Positions 2,086 to 7,308 of a stretch of 34,783 bases of DNA are shown here, in pieces. The stretch is taken from positions 1-34,783 of the forward strand of contig SKJG01000185.1 in the NCBI GenBank assembly GCA_007116035.1, written 5' to 3'. The stretch comes from Thioalkalivibrio sp. Lineage in GTDB: Bacteria > Pseudomonadota > Gammaproteobacteria > Ectothiorhodospirales > Ectothiorhodospiraceae. The notes under the pieces are model-generated. The model made no database searches. It was given only the letters and a program-made list of their open reading frames with translations, and had not been told where the DNA came from. Numbering within the stretch: the stretch's first letter is position 1; every line of letters starts with the position of its first letter. The position numbers and the translations under genes were made by a program.

Positions 2086-2115
2086 GCCTCGAACCCCACC
2101 CCATGGGCGCAAAAT

Positions 2116-2165
2116 AGCGTCGTCCCCGGGATGTCGTCGGGTTACGCTGCGCTAACCCGACCTAC
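2116..2165 (-). repeat. Dispersed palindromic repeat, type B copy 2 (inverted)
   Basis: The reverse complement of 901-950 with two mismatches. Together with that copy it brackets the DsbA-like gene and the 54-residue ORF, leaving about 1.17 kb between the copies. Because it follows the stop of the dihaem cytochrome gene (2217) in transcription direction, its hairpin could end or stabilise that transcript. Confidence 0.85.
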
Positions 2166-2216
2166 TCGGCTGTGACTTTTACGTTAACCAGCCAACCTTG
2201 ATGGTGCGGGCCATGG

Positions 2217-2831
2217 TCAGTCCTGGCTGGCGATGTAGTGGCCCAACGCGCGAAGTTCATGGTCAGAGAGTCCCTCCAGGGCCCGGCGCATGCGCGCGGG
2301 CTGCTGCATGCCCTCCGGGCGATCACGGCGTGCGAAGAGCTGCATCAGCAGGTAATCCGGCGCCTGACCGGCAACGCGCGGCATATCCCGGTCCTGATAC
2401 CGCCCCCCCTGTTCGTGACATTCTTCGCACAATGCCTGATGCAGGCGCTGCCCGGTGACAAACAGCGCGGGGTCCCGCGGGCCTGCGGGAAAATTTTCCC
2501 AGGACTGGTCGGCGTAGTAGGACGCCAGCAGGTTGATCTGCTGCGGCGTGTAGCCCTTCATCACCCGACCCATGATGGTGGAATAGCGGACTCCGGTGCT
2601 GAACTCCCGCATGACCCGAGCCAGGTAGCGACGGTCGAACCCCGCGATCGAAGGCATGGAGGCGGCCCGGCTCACCCCGGTGTGCCCATGGCACCCGCCA
2701 CAGGCGCCGGAGAGGAGTTCGCCCTCCGTGAACCCCGCGGTCACCGGTCCAGCCATGATTCCGGTCATGCCAACGGCAAGAAAAAGGCGGCGCATCCAGT
2801 CCCGAAAAAGGGCGCGCCGCCTCTCATCCAT
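2217..2831 (-). CDS. Periplasmic dihaem cytochrome c (c4 / FccA-like)
   Basis: The protein has 204 residues with a signal peptide (about residues 1-32, cleaved after PVTA) and two class I haem c domains. The haem motifs are CGGCH (C44, C47, H48) and CEECH (C135, C138, H139), with likely Met ligands in the MGRVMKGY and MQQPARMRRA stretches. Two tandem domains of this size are typical of cytochrome c4 and of the dihaem subunit of flavocytochrome c sulfide dehydrogenase. No flavoprotein FccB is nearby, so I keep the call general. It should carry electrons from periplasmic sulfur oxidation to the terminal oxidase. The ATG at 2829-2831 has GGAG at good spacing; an in-frame TTG at 2844-2846 is less likely. 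It follows the monohaem cytochrome gene by 18 nt, so the two are probably cotranscribed. Confidence 0.88.
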   Translation of the reverse strand: MDERRRALFRDWMRRLFLAVGMTGIMAGPVTAGFTEGELLSGACGGCHGHTGVSRAASMPSIAGFDRRYLARVMREFSTGVRYSTIMGRVMKGYTPQQINLLASYYADQSWENFPAGPRDPALFVTGQRLHQALCEECHEQGGRYQDRDMPRVAGQAPDYLLMQLFARRDRPEGMQQPARMRRALEGLSDHELRALGHYIASQD

Positions 2832-2849
2832 GCCGTTGGGCTCCAACCC

Positions 2850-3203
2850 TTACAGCGTGGCCAGCCAATCCGTGATCCTCTTGATCTCCGCCTCGCTCGG
2901 CGGCGCATCGCAGGCCTGGCTGTAGGCAACGGCCGACTTCATCAGCTTGGCCTCCTCCGAATCGGTTTCGCCCCGGAGGATCTTCATTGCGTTGGTCTGG
3001 AGCTCGTCCGCGTTCTTGCCTGCAAGCTTCGGTACCAGCCTGCTGACGGGATCGTTGCCCTGGGCACCGTGACAGTTCGCACAGGCGTGGAATGCAAACA
3101 ATTTCTCACCGTCCATCTGCGCGCGATCCGCGGCAACGGTGAACGAACTCGCACCCATCAATGCGACACCAAAAGCCAATGCCAGTGCTGTAGATTTGAC
3201 CAT
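2850..3203 (-). CDS. Periplasmic monohaem class I cytochrome c
   Basis: The protein has 117 residues with a signal peptide of about 25 residues (ending TVAA) and one haem motif CANCH (C41, C44, H45). M88 in the KLMKSAV stretch is the probable axial ligand. A C-terminal helix, EIKRITDWLATL, closes the fold as in small c-551/c-553 type carriers. An additional cysteine (C98) is present. The ATG at 3201-3203 is preceded by AAAGGAG, a strong ribosome binding site. It is the first gene of a two-cytochrome unit and lies downstream of the SoxY/DsrE-like genes on the same strand. The role is probably soluble electron transfer between a periplasmic sulfur or thiol oxidising step and the membrane oxidase; the partner is not shown by the sequence. 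Confidence 0.9.
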   Translation of the reverse strand: MVKSTALALAFGVALMGASSFTVAADRAQMDGEKLFAFHACANCHGAQGNDPVSRLVPKLAGKNADELQTNAMKILRGETDSEEAKLMKSAVAYSQACDAPPSEAEIKRITDWLATL

Positions 3204-3254
3204 GGGTTTTTCTCCTTTGAATGAGCTTCTTTTCTAATGATCGAGCGAAAACCC

Positions 3255-3298
3255 GATACAGTGGTGGACGCTTTGAGAAACGGCTCGTCACCTGTATC
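3255..3298. repeat. Inverted repeat GATACAG...CTGTATC upstream of the cytochrome genes
   Basis: Seven-base arms at 3255-3261 and 3292-3298 are separated by 30 bases. They lie 52-95 nt upstream of the monohaem cytochrome start, in the 277-bp gap between that gene and the DsrE-like gene. The position would suit an operator for the cytochrome promoter. I see no convincing -10/-35 pair, and the rest of the gap shows nothing recognisable. Confidence 0.3.
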
Positions 3299-3480
3299 AA
3301 GCATGGACCATGAATGCGTAGAAATACTTGGGAAGAATCCCGGATTGAGCTAAGCAAAAGTCTTGGCTGTGGTTGGGGTTTCTCCTAGTAACGCCGAAGA
3401 ACGGGTCAAGAATGGCCGTGAACCGCCAGATCCCCCAGCAGGATCGCTCCGGCGACCCGGAGCGGCACTGGAGGTTTCGT

Positions 3481-3939
3481 TTACGGGCTGATCAGCGTGT
3501 AGCCGGCCGCGGTCAGGTCCAGGATGCGCACCACGCCCGCGTCAACGGGTGTGGCTCGCGCGTGCAGTTCAGGGGCCGTTCCGCGCATGCGGGTGACGGC
3601 AGCGATGGTGTTCTCGCAGGCGGCGAAACGGATGCCCGCATCGACTGCCAGGTCGTCGATCCGACTGGCCTGGGGATTGTCGGCAAACAGCAGGCTCAGG
3701 CCCGGACCGAAGGCAACGATCTCGACGTCGATCTTTTCCGGGCCGTAGTGCCGGATGGCATTGTTGGCGACATTCAAAACCAGGTTTTGCCGGGCCGGGT
3801 CACCGTTGCTGATCTGGAGGACGAGCTTGTGTTCCGCGAACGGTTTGTCGTCGGGTGCCTCGGCCTGGGCGCCCATCGCCAGCAGCAGCAGAGGAAGGGC
3901 AATCATCGCCGAACGCAGGGTGTTGAGAAACGGGTTCAC
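3481..3939 (-). CDS. Secreted DsrE/DsrF-like sulfur-relay family protein
   Basis: The protein has 152 residues. A signal peptide (about residues 1-26, ending GAQA) is followed by a DsrE/YchN-type fold: a first strand KLVLQISNGD, a helix, a strand VEIVAFGPG, and a conserved cysteine (C108) in RFAACENTI at the position where DsrE-family proteins often carry the sulfur-binding cysteine. DsrE relatives transfer persulfide sulfur, usually in the cytoplasm; this one appears exported. The start is GTG at 3937-3939, supported by AAAGGAGAT about 8 nt upstream. It comes 131 nt after soxY, where soxZ would normally be. A role as partner or acceptor for SoxY-bound sulfur is a hypothesis from position and family only. 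Confidence 0.8.
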   Translation of the reverse strand: MNPFLNTLRSAMIALPLLLLAMGAQAEAPDDKPFAEHKLVLQISNGDPARQNLVLNVANNAIRHYGPEKIDVEIVAFGPGLSLLFADNPQASRIDDLAVDAGIRFAACENTIAAVTRMRGTAPELHARATPVDAGVVRILDLTAAGYTLISP

Positions 3940-4070
3940 CTTGTGGATCTCCTTTGACCTTCCGTCACCGGCCCCGAAGGGAACGCATCCGGCAACGTCT
4001 TTGGTGGGATGGTTGTGGTGTTTTGGCGGAATCCGGTTGCCGCGGTCTGACCCCGGCGCGATCCGGGCTA

Positions 4071-4541
4071 TCAGCCGCCGCAGCCGCCGAGGGTGACCTT
4101 CACCTCTCGGGAAGCGCCGTACCAGGCGCCGCCGGATTTGACGGCGGCGACCACGTCGGAGGTTTCCGCCATCTTGACGCGAATCGAGACCATCGGTTGG
4201 GCGGACGCGCCCAGCAGGAACGTGGCCGCCAGCGGCTGACCGTTCTGGACTACGAACAGGGCTATCTCGCTGACATCCGGCATGCCGCTTTCGATGGTCA
4301 CCGAGACCATGGCGCCGTTCTCGGCAATCTCGGGGGCGAAGATCTCGATGTCGCCTGCCGGGAGGTCGGAGGTTCCGGTGACGGCCTTCAGGGATGCTTC
4401 GTGGTTACGCAAGACGAAGGCATCCGCGGGCCAGGCGGCCAGAACCCGGATCGGGGCCAGCAACCCGGCTGCGGCAGCGATGCCGACCGTGCTGGCGGCA
4501 ATGCTGCCTTTCAGGAAAGTGCGGCGCTTGTTATTCGGCAT
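4071..4541 (-). CDS. soxY: SoxY, thiosulfate-oxidation sulfur-carrier subunit
   Basis: The protein has 156 residues. A twin-arginine signal (KRRTFLKGS, Arg 6-7) precedes a hydrophobic stretch ending VLAA. The SoxY immunoglobulin-like domain follows, and the chain ends in GGCGG with C154 on the swinging arm. In the Sox pathway this cysteine carries the thiosulfate-derived sulfur while SoxY is paired with SoxZ in the periplasm. The ATG at 4539-4541 has GGGAGG 5 nt upstream. The neighbours are a TlpA-like thioredoxin upstream (stop at 4634) and a DsrE-like gene downstream. No soxZ-length frame exists between 3940 and 4070, and no soxX, soxA, soxB, soxC or soxD is in the window. The Tat signal fits co-export of a folded pair, so a SoxZ may be encoded elsewhere. 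Confidence 0.93.
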   Translation of the reverse strand: MPNNKRRTFLKGSIAASTVGIAAAAGLLAPIRVLAAWPADAFVLRNHEASLKAVTGTSDLPAGDIEIFAPEIAENGAMVSVTIESGMPDVSEIALFVVQNGQPLAATFLLGASAQPMVSIRVKMAETSDVVAAVKSGGAWYGASREVKVTLGGCGG

Positions 4542-4633
4542 GGAGGCCTCCCGGCAGTGGTTTGGAATCAAGCCAACGCTCACTTGATCAGCAGGAAATC
4601 GGATGCGGTGGTGGCACATTGCGCGCACAGGGG

Positions 4634-5242
4634 TCAGAGCGCTGGCGCCGTCCGGTTAGCTTCCGCGTCACCGGAGCCCGGCAGCAACGCCTGGATCTGT
4701 CCGCGCAGATCAGGGCTGTCGAAATCGACCTCACCCACGGCCCGGAGTACGATATGGCCATACCGGTCCACCACCACGGTCGTCGGCACCACGCGCGCGT
4801 GCCACGCCTGCGACACCGAGCCATCTGGATCGAGCAGCATTGGAAAGGCGGGCAGTACGGGGAGCGTCTGCAGGAAGTCCTGAATGCGTTCCACGGACTC
4901 GCCCACGTTCACGCCGACCACCTCGAAATCCGCGCCCTGGAAATGCTGCGCCAGCCGCGCCAGCGCCGGCATCTCCTTGCGGCATGGGGGGCACCAGGTG
5001 GCCCAGAAGTTCACCAGGATCACCCGGCCCTCGAAATCGGCAAGGCCGTACTCCCGGCCGTCGAGGGCCTCGAGCCCCAGCGCTGGCGCCGCGCGCGGCT
5101 CGGCCAGCGGCTTAAGAAGCTTTGCCGGAACCCCGGACTGTGCCCAGAGGGGCGCTGCCAACAACAGCAGCACGACCGCCAGAACACCCCGGACGCGCCA
5201 ACGCTGCCCGCCGCGTGAGCGGCAGACCGCGACGCTGCGCAT
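4634..5242 (-). CDS. TlpA/SoxW-like periplasmic thioredoxin
   Basis: The protein has 202 residues with a basic N-terminus and a signal or anchor helix (about residues 18-35, ending LWAQ). It has a TlpA-type thioredoxin domain with VNFWATWCPPCRKEMP (C84, C87) and a cis-proline in ARVVPTTVVVD. TlpA/ResA/SoxW proteins reduce periplasmic cysteines; in sox clusters such a protein is thought to keep the SoxY cysteine reduced. The gene ends 92 nt before soxY and starts 8 nt from the preceding hypothetical gene, so an operon is likely. The ATG at 5240-5242 is chosen. A TTG at 5255-5257 would overlap the upstream gene, and neither start has an obvious ribosome site. Confidence 0.87.
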   Translation of the reverse strand: MRSVAVCRSRGGQRWRVRGVLAVVLLLLAAPLWAQSGVPAKLLKPLAEPRAAPALGLEALDGREYGLADFEGRVILVNFWATWCPPCRKEMPALARLAQHFQGADFEVVGVNVGESVERIQDFLQTLPVLPAFPMLLDPDGSVSQAWHARVVPTTVVVDRYGHIVLRAVGEVDFDSPDLRGQIQALLPGSGDAEANRTAPAL

Positions 5243-5250
5243 GGCCGGCT

Positions 5251-5601
5251 TCAGCAACCTTCGTCCTGCAGAACGAACATCCCGGCGTCATCCATCTGGG
5301 GCACACCGTCGTCGTCGGTGATGATGGTGCCGACGAACATCATGCTCCGAATGCGGTGCGGGTGGAGAGACATTGCCGACTCGACCTGCTGGTCGGTGAG
5401 GCCATCGTAGATCACGACCTCGCCCAGCACCTCGCGCAGGAGCTCGCTTTCGGTGGGCCGCATCAGTCGCCGCAACTGCCAGTTGTCCGCGTACACCGGG
5501 ACCGCGGCGCCAGGCGCCTCCGCCAGAACCGCGGAGGCTGGAACGCCTCCGAGCAAGGCCATGAGAAGCAGACACTGCAACGGATACATCGTTCGGTTCA
5601 T
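5251..5601 (-). CDS. Hypothetical secreted protein ending in cysteine
   Basis: I do not recognise the family. The 116 residues start with a signal peptide (about residues 1-28, LLLMALLGGVPASAVLA). The mature part is mixed and acidic (YADNWQLRRLM, EVVIYDGLTDQQVESAM, GTIITDDDGVPQMDD), and the chain ends in EGC, so the last residue, C116, is the only cysteine of the mature protein. The ATG at 5599-5601 has GGAGGG at good spacing; a GTG at 5623-5625 is possible but would add residues before the signal. It is the first gene of the TlpA-SoxY-DsrE-like run. A C-terminal cysteine beside SoxY, whose own cysteine is near the C-terminus, suggests a thiol or sulfur-handling role, but nothing proves it. 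Confidence 0.7.
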   Translation of the reverse strand: MNRTMYPLQCLLLMALLGGVPASAVLAEAPGAAVPVYADNWQLRRLMRPTESELLREVLGEVVIYDGLTDQQVESAMSLHPHRIRSMMFVGTIITDDDGVPQMDDAGMFVLQDEGC

Positions 5602-5691
5602 GGAGATGCCCTCCGCGTGCTGCACGGGTCAACGTCAAAGCGCGACTCGCGCTTGATCGACATGGGACCAAGAGTATTCCCGAAAGCGGTA

Positions 5692-5737
5692 GGTTTCATG
5701 AGAGAAACCGCCAGGGAGGCTAGGAAAAAGTCCTAGC
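5692..5737. promoter_or_regulatory. Two short palindromes upstream of the SoxY cluster
   Basis: In the 190-bp gap between the narL-like gene and the first gene of the SoxY cluster there are two perfect inverted repeats. GGTTTC-N6-GAAACC is at 5692-5709 and GCTAGGA-AAAAG-TCCTAGC is at 5719-5737. They may be operators for the SoxY-cluster promoter or a terminator hairpin behind the response-regulator gene. There is no clear U-tract and no convincing sigma-70 promoter that would decide. Confidence 0.35.
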
Positions 5738-5791
5738 AGGAAGTGCAATGCGCAGGGCCGCTCGCGTGGTGGTCCTGCGATTCAGGTTTGC

Positions 5792-6439
5792 TCAGAAACT
5801 GCGTCGCCGGCGCTGCTCAAGGCACCATAGCGCGGCCTCCACCCGCGAATGCAGGCCCAGCTTCTTCAGCAGGTGTTTCACGTGCACCTTCACGGTGGCG
5901 TCTGAGATCTGCAGCTCGGCCGCGATCTTCCGATTGCTGTGGCCGGCGGCGATGCATTCGAGGATCTGCCGTTCACGGCTGGTCAGGCCGACAAGGTCCA
6001 TCGCCACACACCCGCCGTCGTCGCGGATCGACCGGGCCAGGGATTCCCCCAGCCCCTCGGCGAGCACCAACTGGCCGGCAACGACCCGGCGCAGCTGCGC
6101 GAGCAGTGCATGCGGCTCCGCGTTCTTCAGCAGGTACCCGTCGGCGCCGGCGCGCAGCGCCGCCTGCAGGTGTGCCGGGTCGCGCGAGGCGGTGATAACC
6201 GCGACCCGCAACCCGACGCCCGCCTCGCGCAGGCGGCGCAGGGCACCGATCCCGTCCATGTCACCCAGCCTGACGTCGAGCAGCACGAGATCGGGCTGGA
6301 GCGCGAACGCCAGCTCCAGTCCCTCACGGCCCGAGCCCGCCTCGCCGACGACGCGGAAGCCGCCGCCGCGCTCCATCAGGTCGCGCGCGGCCCGACGAAA
6401 GAGGGGGTGATCGTCGACGACCACGGCCCGGGCCGGCAT
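5792..6439 (-). CDS. NarL/FixJ-family response regulator
   Basis: The protein has 215 residues. The receiver domain (about residues 3-120) has the acidic pair DD at 9-10, the phosphoacceptor D55 in LVLLDVRLGD, and the conserved lysine in YLLKNAEP. The LuxR-type helix-turn-helix (about 148-207) reads LTSRERQILECIAAG and ATVKVHVKHLLKKL, closest in style to NarL/NarP. No sensor kinase gene is adjacent; the CHASE sensor at the left edge is a remote candidate. The ATG at 6437-6439 gives the normal family length. The frame stays open upstream, and an ATG at 6539-6541 would add 34 residues. It is divergent from the Dnr-like gene and lies upstream of the SoxY cluster on the same strand, which suggests anaerobic or nitrate-linked control of respiration. 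Confidence 0.88.
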   Translation of the reverse strand: MPARAVVVDDHPLFRRAARDLMERGGGFRVVGEAGSGREGLELAFALQPDLVLLDVRLGDMDGIGALRRLREAGVGLRVAVITASRDPAHLQAALRAGADGYLLKNAEPHALLAQLRRVVAGQLVLAEGLGESLARSIRDDGGCVAMDLVGLTSRERQILECIAAGHSNRKIAAELQISDATVKVHVKHLLKKLGLHSRVEAALWCLEQRRRRSF

Positions 6440-6602
6440 CCGGGCCCGGGCGACCTCCTCGACCTGCTGCCGGCTGGAGGCCAGCCGGGCGGGTCCGGGG
6501 ACCTGGTTCCAGGTTATGATCTGTCGCTGCGGTGCAGACATGATGGGGACCGGTGACCGTTGCATGGTCCCTCGAAACTGCACTCCCATCCGCCTCATGT
6601 CC

Positions 6603-6616
6603 TTGACCTTCGTCAA
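6603..6616. promoter_or_regulatory. FNR/DNR-type box TTGAC-N4-GTCAA
   Basis: A perfect inverted repeat TTGAC-CTTC-GTCAA matches the general FNR/DNR recognition pattern (TTGAY-N4-RTCAA). It lies in the divergent region between the narL-like gene and the Dnr-like gene. Its centre is 27 nt upstream of the dnr-like ATG, too close for class II activation of that gene but suited to autorepression. If it sits at -41.5 of the other promoter, the narL-like transcript would start near 6568. The binding protein is probably the adjacent Dnr-like regulator (inference). Confidence 0.72.
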
Positions 6617-6636
6617 GACAACCCTTGGCTGCAACG

Positions 6637-7308
6637 ATGCTGGATCCGAAGATCATCGAAGACATCCCGCTCTTCGAACCGCTGGACGCCGAGCAGAGAC
6701 AGCGGGTCCTCCACTCGGCACGGATCCTGCGCCTGAACCGGGGCCAGGCGCTGTTCGCGCGCGGCGCTCCAGCGCGGCACTTCTACCTGGTGCTGGAAGG
6801 CAGCATCAAGCTGTACCTGCTGTCGCCCGAGGGCGAGGAGAAGGTGGTTGAGGTCATGCATCCGGGCCAGACCTTCGCCGAGGCGGTGATGTTCATGGAA
6901 CAGGAGGCATACCCGGTCAATGCGAGCGCGTTGACGGACCTGCGCCTGGCTGCGTTCAGCAACGCGGTCTTCGTCCAGCTGCTGCGCGAAAGCCCCGAAC
7001 TGGCCCTGCGCTTGCTGGGCACGCTCAGCCGGCGCCTGCATGCGCTGCTAAATCAGATCGACGAACTGGCCCTGCACGATGCCACCCGTCGCCTGGTCGC
7101 CTACCTGCTGACCCTGCCGCGCAATGCGGAGGACAGGATCGATCTCGACCTCCCCAAGCAGGTGATCGCCGCACGGCTCGCGATGAAGCCCGAGACCCTG
7201 TCCCGAACCCTTGCCGCCCTGCGCGAACGTCAACTGCTGGCGGTGGAGGGCGATCGCATCCTGCTGCTGGACCTCGAGTCCCTGCACGGCCTGCTGGCGC
7301 AACGCTGA
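6637..7308 (+). CDS. Crp/Fnr-family regulator, Dnr-like
   Basis: The protein has 223 residues. A cyclic-nucleotide-type sensor domain (FYLVLEGSIKLYLLSPEGEEKVVEV, then HPGQTFAEAVMFM) is followed by a dimerisation helix and a Crp-type helix-turn-helix near the C-terminus (KQVIAARLAMKPETLSRTLAAL). No cysteine cluster for an iron-sulfur centre is present, so it is not a classical FNR. The FAEAVMFM and YPVNASA blocks resemble Dnr, the haem-dependent NO sensor controlling denitrification genes. The ATG at 6637-6639 is chosen; a TTG at 6625 is in frame. The ribosome site is weak for both. The divergent narL-like gene and the FNR/DNR box between them indicate cross- or auto-regulation. Confidence 0.87.
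   Translation: MLDPKIIEDIPLFEPLDAEQRQRVLHSARILRLNRGQALFARGAPARHFYLVLEGSIKLYLLSPEGEEKVVEVMHPGQTFAEAVMFMEQEAYPVNASALTDLRLAAFSNAVFVQLLRESPELALRLLGTLSRRLHALLNQIDELALHDATRRLVAYLLTLPRNAEDRIDLDLPKQVIAARLAMKPETLSRTLAALRERQLLAVEGDRILLLDLESLHGLLAQR

Follow-up and report, generated by a model that had tools for sequence, protein, structure and literature searches.

We found that a 34,783-nucleotide stretch of DNA from the soda-lake sulfur bacterium Thioalkalivibrio sp. (contig SKJG01000185.1 of assembly GCA_007116035.1, hereafter the window) encodes a SoxY sulfur carrier that has no soxZ gene beside it and lies among genes for a thioredoxin, a DsrE-like protein, and a small secreted protein with a C-terminal Cys (SmallC). 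Genome-wide searches and comparisons with related genomes identified this gene, here called soxY2, as a second, SoxZ-less copy of soxY and not a recent stray copy. The cluster around it is probably a specialized side branch of the known Sox pathway, not a separate pathway. The source genome (G000; 3.03 Mb in 186 contigs, 99.67% complete, with the window as contig C134) was analyzed together with two comparison sets, 47 genomes of the order and 369 genomes of the class Gammaproteobacteria.

All of the genes named in the original prediction for this DNA (a SoxY, a TlpA-like thioredoxin, a DsrE-like protein, the Cys-ended protein, and two cytochromes c) were present on the minus strand (Table 1). 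They are transcribed in the order SmallC, tlpA, soxY2, and dsrE-like gene, followed after a 278-bp gap by the mono-haem and then the di-haem cytochrome c gene. The start of tlpA overlaps the end of the SmallC gene, and the gap between soxY2 and the dsrE-like gene is 131 bp long and contains no soxZ, as had been predicted. The first four genes are presumably cotranscribed as an operon, with the cytochrome pair probably forming a separate unit. SoxY2 carries a twin-arginine translocation (Tat)-type signal (KRRTFLKG) and ends in VTLGGCGG, which includes the GGCGG arm and its carrier cysteine. It scored 148.6 bits against the "true SoxY" model TIGR04488 (cut-off, 125). In family membership, signal, and arm, SoxY2 therefore resembles the SoxY of canonical SoxYZ (TIGR04488 plus TIGR04490); it differs in the Leu of its arm (VTLGGC) and in its locus, since canonical operons have soxZ directly beside soxY.

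Family searches across the whole genome located the canonical genes on other contigs: soxYZ on C180, soxB on C130, and soxA with soxX on C83. Each product scored above its curated cut-off (SoxA, 189.5 bits; SoxX, 77.9; SoxB, 793.9; SoxZ, 120; and the canonical SoxY, SoxY1, 150.4), and we accordingly rejected the possibility of a genome without canonical Sox. The sole SoxZ match in the genome was at C180:6149-6430, with none on C134. Two further genomes of the order, G036 and G028, likewise encoded one SoxZ and two SoxYs each. The earlier statement that the window holds no other sox gene was thus correct for SoxZ, SoxB, and SoxA, whose only matches lay outside it, but does not carry over to the genome as a whole. 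Because SoxAX, SoxB, and SoxYZ exist elsewhere in the genome, the self-contained sulfur route that had been proposed is not supported. What survives of the suggestion of an undescribed system is a distinct SoxZ-less paralogue that is under purifying selection and has an upstream element in common with related units.

A soxY gene without soxZ was rare. The 47 genomes of the order yielded 50 SoxY and 47 SoxZ matches, and two of the SoxY matches were fragments, both in one genome (G044). By inspection of coordinates, soxZ was adjacent to 45 of the 48 non-fragment soxY genes, 38 of the 45 being confirmed by script. The three exceptions were soxY2 and one gene each in G036 (contig C13) and G028 (contig C310), referred to here as the lone soxY genes. 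In the class set, SoxY was found in 190 of the 369 genomes. Among the matches listed for 19 other gammaproteobacterial genomes with at least two soxY genes, soxZ was adjacent in all 33 loci sampled; these were a nonrandom 33 of 49 SoxY matches, and the 16 left out, which include long frames taken for SoxYZ fusions, may contain a lone soxY. This comparison bears on the idea that SoxY2 provides extra dosage of the ordinary carrier, its neighbors being there by chance. Such a copy would belong to the same family model and have the same arm cysteine, as SoxY2 does, but soxZ would be expected to come along, as in the 33 sampled loci. Some of the sampled pairs are, moreover, nearly identical copies, whereas identity between SoxY2 and SoxY1 is 65%; we consider the dosage explanation very unlikely. 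A literature search, in which subscription journals were poorly covered, found no paper on a SoxY without SoxZ, on an orphan, second, or additional soxY, or on a SoxY-DsrE-TlpA set.

The lone SoxYs also stood apart in sequence. In a tree of 74 SoxYs, in which the bootstrap had not settled and the G028 lone gene was listed among the long end branches, the three formed one branch (support, 100/98), whose sister group is made up of the canonical SoxYs from their own sublineage. The other two also exceeded the TIGR04488 cut-off (150.7 and 147.5 bits). All three end in VTLGGCGG; the 71 other SoxYs end in VTIGGCGG (50), VTVGGCGG (15), or another form, and two of them have Leu at that arm position. 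Met76 was present in each lone SoxY and in none of the 71 others, and the lone-SoxY changes at positions 76 (V to M) and 78 (P to S/A) fall within a conserved stretch. The G000 and G028 lone proteins were 65.6% identical to each other, and the three lone proteins shared 63 to 65% identity with the canonical SoxYs of these two genomes. A body and arm that still function would be expected to retain the most conserved positions, and all 18 columns conserved in at least 95% of the 71 other SoxYs were indeed kept in all three. At the 30 columns conserved in at least 90%, the lone SoxYs deviated at 2, 2, and 3 and their sister canonical proteins at 0 to 1. At the 54 columns conserved in at least 80%, the corresponding numbers were 6, 6, and 8 against 1 to 2 (median of all 71, 3; range, 1 to 23).

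Conservation of the gene order, proposed earlier as a check, was partial. The order SmallC-TlpA-SoxY2-DsrE was intact in G000 and G036, whose DsrE-like proteins are 95% identical; contig C13 of G036 stops directly after dsrE, and the cytochrome positions would lie beyond its end. The same order was found as a remnant in G035 (L054 1500-2360), with deletions, a tlpA gene cut short, and soxY joined to dsrE. These deletions may represent either gene decay or an artefact of an assembly of about 240 contigs. G031 (58% complete) retained only the first two genes, SmallC and TlpA, with no SoxY behind them. The lone soxY of G028 is flanked by genes for a DEAD-box helicase and a lactate permease, and the DsrE-like gene of that genome is on another contig. 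Since this lone soxY has neither TlpA nor DsrE as a neighbor, these two proteins are not obligatory companions.

The upstream regions provided a further connection among these loci. The 13-mer GACTTTTTCCTAG occurred in three exact copies across the 47 genomes: one precedes the operon in G000 (the single exact copy in that genome), one the SmallC-TlpA pair of G031, and one the lone soxY of G028, which is unlinked. A changed copy occupies the same place in G036. Because the pattern was picked by eye from these upstream sequences, its presence there is no test, but the absence of further exact copies is informative. When pairs of 250-bp windows were drawn at random from the G000 and G028 loci, 117 of 20,000 draws (0.00585) gave a common stretch of at least 13, a count that includes homologous coding sequence. 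This distribution is most simply explained either by loss of pieces from a single ancestral operon that had this promoter region or by one small regulon. Copies with one mismatch numbered 28 in the 47 genomes, and GACTTTTTCCTAG with up to one mismatch was not enriched there (31 matches versus 140 for a reversed control pattern, a total summed from columns that mix exact and one-mismatch matches); hence nothing points to a large regulon. The genes following the 28 copies were judged by eye from the longest downstream frame, with one family-searched. The frame downstream of one copy had a receiver-domain match below the cut-off (26.4 versus 30.2 bits).

Within the window, the two-mismatch copy GACTTTTGCTTAG precedes the cytochrome pair, where 0.15 matches with up to two mismatches were expected per shuffled window. 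GACTTTTTCCTAG is a putative regulator site. The gene for a NarL-type response regulator lies directly upstream of the operon and, judging from this position, its product is a possible controller of the operon; the gene is absent from the corresponding place in G036. Together with a Crp/Fnr regulator gene, it occupies 5792-7308, between the cluster and an rsmD-like gene in G000, and this pair is not there in G036. A sigma-70 promoter scan of positions 2100-5860 found none, and a literature search combining part of GACTTTTTCCTAG with LuxR found no paper.

To describe selection on the operon, we compared ratios of nonsynonymous to synonymous substitution (dN/dS) between G000 and G036 by a Nei-Gojobori type count. 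The ratios were 0.22 for SoxY2, 0.17 for DsrE, 0.30 for TlpA, and 0.34 for SmallC; SoxY1 (0.03), SoxZ (0.08), and three flanking genes (0.09 to 0.15) served as comparison. All four operon genes are under purifying selection, which is looser than that on core genes. These values are relevant to the possibility that SoxY2 is a leftover duplicate, copied and kept by chance with little function in a decaying cluster. We regard that possibility as doubtful. It would fit the presence of a lone soxY in only 3 of the 47 genomes, the mere pieces retained in G035, and a dN/dS above that of SoxY1. However, the ratios are well below 1 for all four genes, the G035 deletions may be artefacts of a fragmented assembly, and an exact upstream element is shared. 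In addition, lone SoxYs with only about 65% identity to each other (G000 versus G028) have retained the signal, the arm, and the conserved body.

Our leading hypothesis, in which we place about even confidence, is that SoxY2 is a lineage-specific accessory carrier that pairs in trans with the sole SoxZ and is serviced by the TlpA-like and DsrE-like proteins. SoxY2 would have arisen by duplication of soxY without soxZ within one Thioalkalivibrio sublineage, and would most likely pair in trans, as a heterodimer, with the SoxZ encoded on C180. SoxY2 would receive its sulfur from the canonical SoxAX and SoxB or from polysulfide. The TlpA-like thioredoxin would then reduce the Cys arm of SoxY2 or release its sulfane sulfur, and the periplasmic DsrE-like protein would accept sulfur from SoxY2. 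A precedent for such servicing, as described in PMC10451225, is SoxS, a periplasmic thiol-disulfide oxidoreductase that acts on SoxYZ.

Several observations weigh against this hypothesis. In approximately unbiased (AU) tests, forcing the G028 lone soxY together with its own canonical copy was not rejected (P = 0.178), nor was forcing the G000 and G036 lone genes together with theirs (P = 0.0581); independent duplications may thus have given rise to the lone genes. Of the 47 genomes, only G000 and G036 preserve the full four-gene order, and in G028 neither TlpA nor DsrE is a neighbor of the lone soxY. The dN/dS of SoxY2 is far higher than that of SoxY1. Finally, the excess of SoxY2 deviations over its sisters at the columns conserved in at least 80% (6 of 54 versus 1 to 2), although within the range of all 71, may mean that pairing with SoxZ has changed.

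A reading close to the original prediction is that SoxY2 works without SoxZ in a route devoted to sulfur release, either as a homodimer or in partnership with SmallC or the DsrE-like protein. The absence of soxZ from all three lone loci, when it is otherwise adjacent in 45 of 48 and 33 of 33 cases, is consistent with this reading, as are the shared changes at 76 and 78 in a conserved stretch and the exact GACTTTTTCCTAG that ties the lone soxY to the SmallC-TlpA pair even when they are unlinked. Yet SoxZ exists in the same genomes, the most highly conserved SoxY columns are kept, the G028 lone soxY has neither SmallC nor DsrE beside it, and none of 20 SmallC-homologue neighborhoods contained a SoxY or SoxZ match; we think a SoxZ-free SoxY2 unlikely. 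A more speculative proposal, which we would call decidedly unlikely, is that the lone SoxY branch left SoxZ and, with SmallC or the DsrE-like protein, strips sulfane sulfur off the Sox carrier when switched on by a regulator that reads GACTTTTTCCTAG. The removal of sulfane sulfur from the Sox carrier in Thioalkalivibrio is marked as being of unknown mechanism in the legend of Figure 6 of PMC6382920.

The properties of the neighboring proteins agree with their assignments. The thioredoxin has a WCPPC motif and an AhpC-TSA/Redoxin domain, as in TlpA/ResA thioredoxins, and its relatives in the PDB are ResA and TlpA; it scored below the NCBIfam cut-offs for both. Neither Pfam nor NCBIfam gave a match to the DsrE-like protein at an E value of 0.01. 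Its label was nonetheless borne out by profile matches to MTH1491 (1l1s, 3.8e-19) and 2pd2 and by an AlphaFold model (mean predicted local distance difference test [pLDDT] score, 88.2) that matched 1l1s, DsrEFH, and TusBCD. Cys108 was invariant in 16 aligned homologues. The window protein thus shares the fold of known DsrE-like proteins (MTH1491, 1l1s; ST0148, 2pd2; DsrEFH, 2hy5). DsrEFH and TusBCD are cytoplasmic, in contrast to the window protein, whose signal-peptide-like N terminus suggests that it is probably periplasmic.

DsrE-like homologues were rejected as a marker of the cluster, as they had other types of neighbor in the loci examined. These included pyruvate-oxidoreductase-like subunits (judged by eye), a PHO4-type transporter (one locus tested), and a sulfide:quinone-reductase-like gene (one locus tested), among others. 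In two relatives (L040 4543-6684 and L041 4823-7193), the secreted DsrE-like gene lies near a gene for a flavin adenine dinucleotide (FAD) protein with a Tat-like start; the FAD protein of L040 resembles sulfide:quinone reductase (NF049943, 192.4 bits, below the cut-off of 525). In several relatives, a secreted DsrE-like protein of a second type is encoded after a transporter gene, which is of the PHO4 family at L046 189-7153; L048 and L050-L053 are similar loci. Upstream of the transporter at these loci are genes that by eye resemble subunits of pyruvate:ferredoxin oxidoreductase.

SmallC belongs to an unnamed gammaproteobacterial family of small secreted proteins (window 5251-5601; L159-L176) with the consensus WQ..rL..Ps......E..G.v.IYdGl.d..V..Am...fdRi..MMFv.tv.T...G...D..tG....eddgC. 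Single-sequence searches detected it in 4 of the 47 order genomes, and a genome-collection scan detected two loci. A three-sequence profile found the family in 14 of the 369 class genomes, with up to four copies per genome, and the idea that SmallC is unique to this cluster was rejected. Of 21 called homologous frames, 19 had a complete C terminus, and all 19 had a Cys within the last three residues; at L177, the expected SmallC gene was missed by the gene caller. SmallC had no Pfam or NCBIfam match, and three homologues had no Pfam match at an E value of 0.1. The 20 homologue neighborhoods contained no SoxY, SoxZ, or DsrE-profile match. In two of them (L161 and L164), a frame weakly similar to the window TlpA (30% and 40% identity) lay a few kilobases away. 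The AlphaFold model of SmallC was poor (mean pLDDT, 51.5; predicted template modeling score, 0.31), and the best PDB match had an E value of 0.061. Elsewhere in the window, a pair of 72-nucleotide inverted repeats (879-950 and 2116-2187; 89% complementary) flanks a DsbA-like gene at 1146-1952.

Table 1. Positions in the window of the soxY2 cluster, its upstream elements, and the adjacent regulator gene
Feature	Position	Strand	Basis
SmallC, small secreted protein ending in Cys	5251..5601	-	Reading frame; no Pfam/NCBIfam match
TlpA/ResA-like periplasmic thioredoxin	4634..5257	-	PF00578 5.5e-26, PF08534 6.4e-23; TTG start at 5257 or ATG at 5242
SoxY2, Tat-type SoxY without adjacent soxZ, arm VTLGGCGG	4071..4541	-	PF13501 3e-30; TIGR04488 148.6 bits
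Secreted DsrE-like protein	3481..3939	-	Profile match, AlphaFold fold, invariant Cys108
Mono-haem cytochrome c, secreted	2850..3203	-	PF00034 1.1e-6; 278-bp gap to dsrE
Di-haem cytochrome c, secreted, PdsA-like below cut-off	2217..2831	-	PF00034 3.6e-10; NF049874 93.7 bits versus cut-off 330
GACTTTTTCCTAG, putative regulatory element ~119 bp upstream of operon	5720..5732	-	Exact-copy search, 47 genomes
GACTTTTGCTTAG, two-mismatch copy of GACTTTTTCCTAG, upstream of cytochrome pair	3350..3362	-	Mismatch search of window
NarL-type response regulator	5792..6538	-	NF007935 234.9 bits versus cut-off 250

Two further known systems are among the closest comparisons. According to PMC11237559, lucinid symbionts and their relatives have an expanded soxY family (SoxY-S1b, S1c, and S3, and the fused SoxYZ-S2 and S4). 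As in the genomes studied here, several SoxYs occur per genome, with changed arms and new neighbors, and S1b and S1c are one residue off the 1a signature (VTIGGC). Unlike soxY2, these genes adjoin those for dimethyl sulfoxide reductase, octahaem tetrathionate reductase, alcohol dehydrogenase, and other proteins, and the available text of that study contained no SoxY-TlpA-DsrE set and no mention of a SoxZ-less SoxY. The second comparison is with SoxS and SoxW, likewise secreted proteins of the thioredoxin type that are encoded with a Sox carrier. Of these, SoxS acts by reducing false mixed disulfides on SoxYZ (PMC10451225). The window protein differs in being of the TlpA/ResA type and in lying beside a SoxZ-less SoxY, on which it may act by analogy.

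SoxY is usually regarded as one half of SoxYZ, and a maintained SoxZ-less branch provides an object on which that view can be tested. The lone SoxY branch bears on whether one SoxZ serves several SoxYs or SoxY can act alone. The unit of SoxY2, thioredoxin, and DsrE-like protein bears, in turn, on how sulfane sulfur may exit from the carrier when a bacterium has only a truncated Sox pathway.

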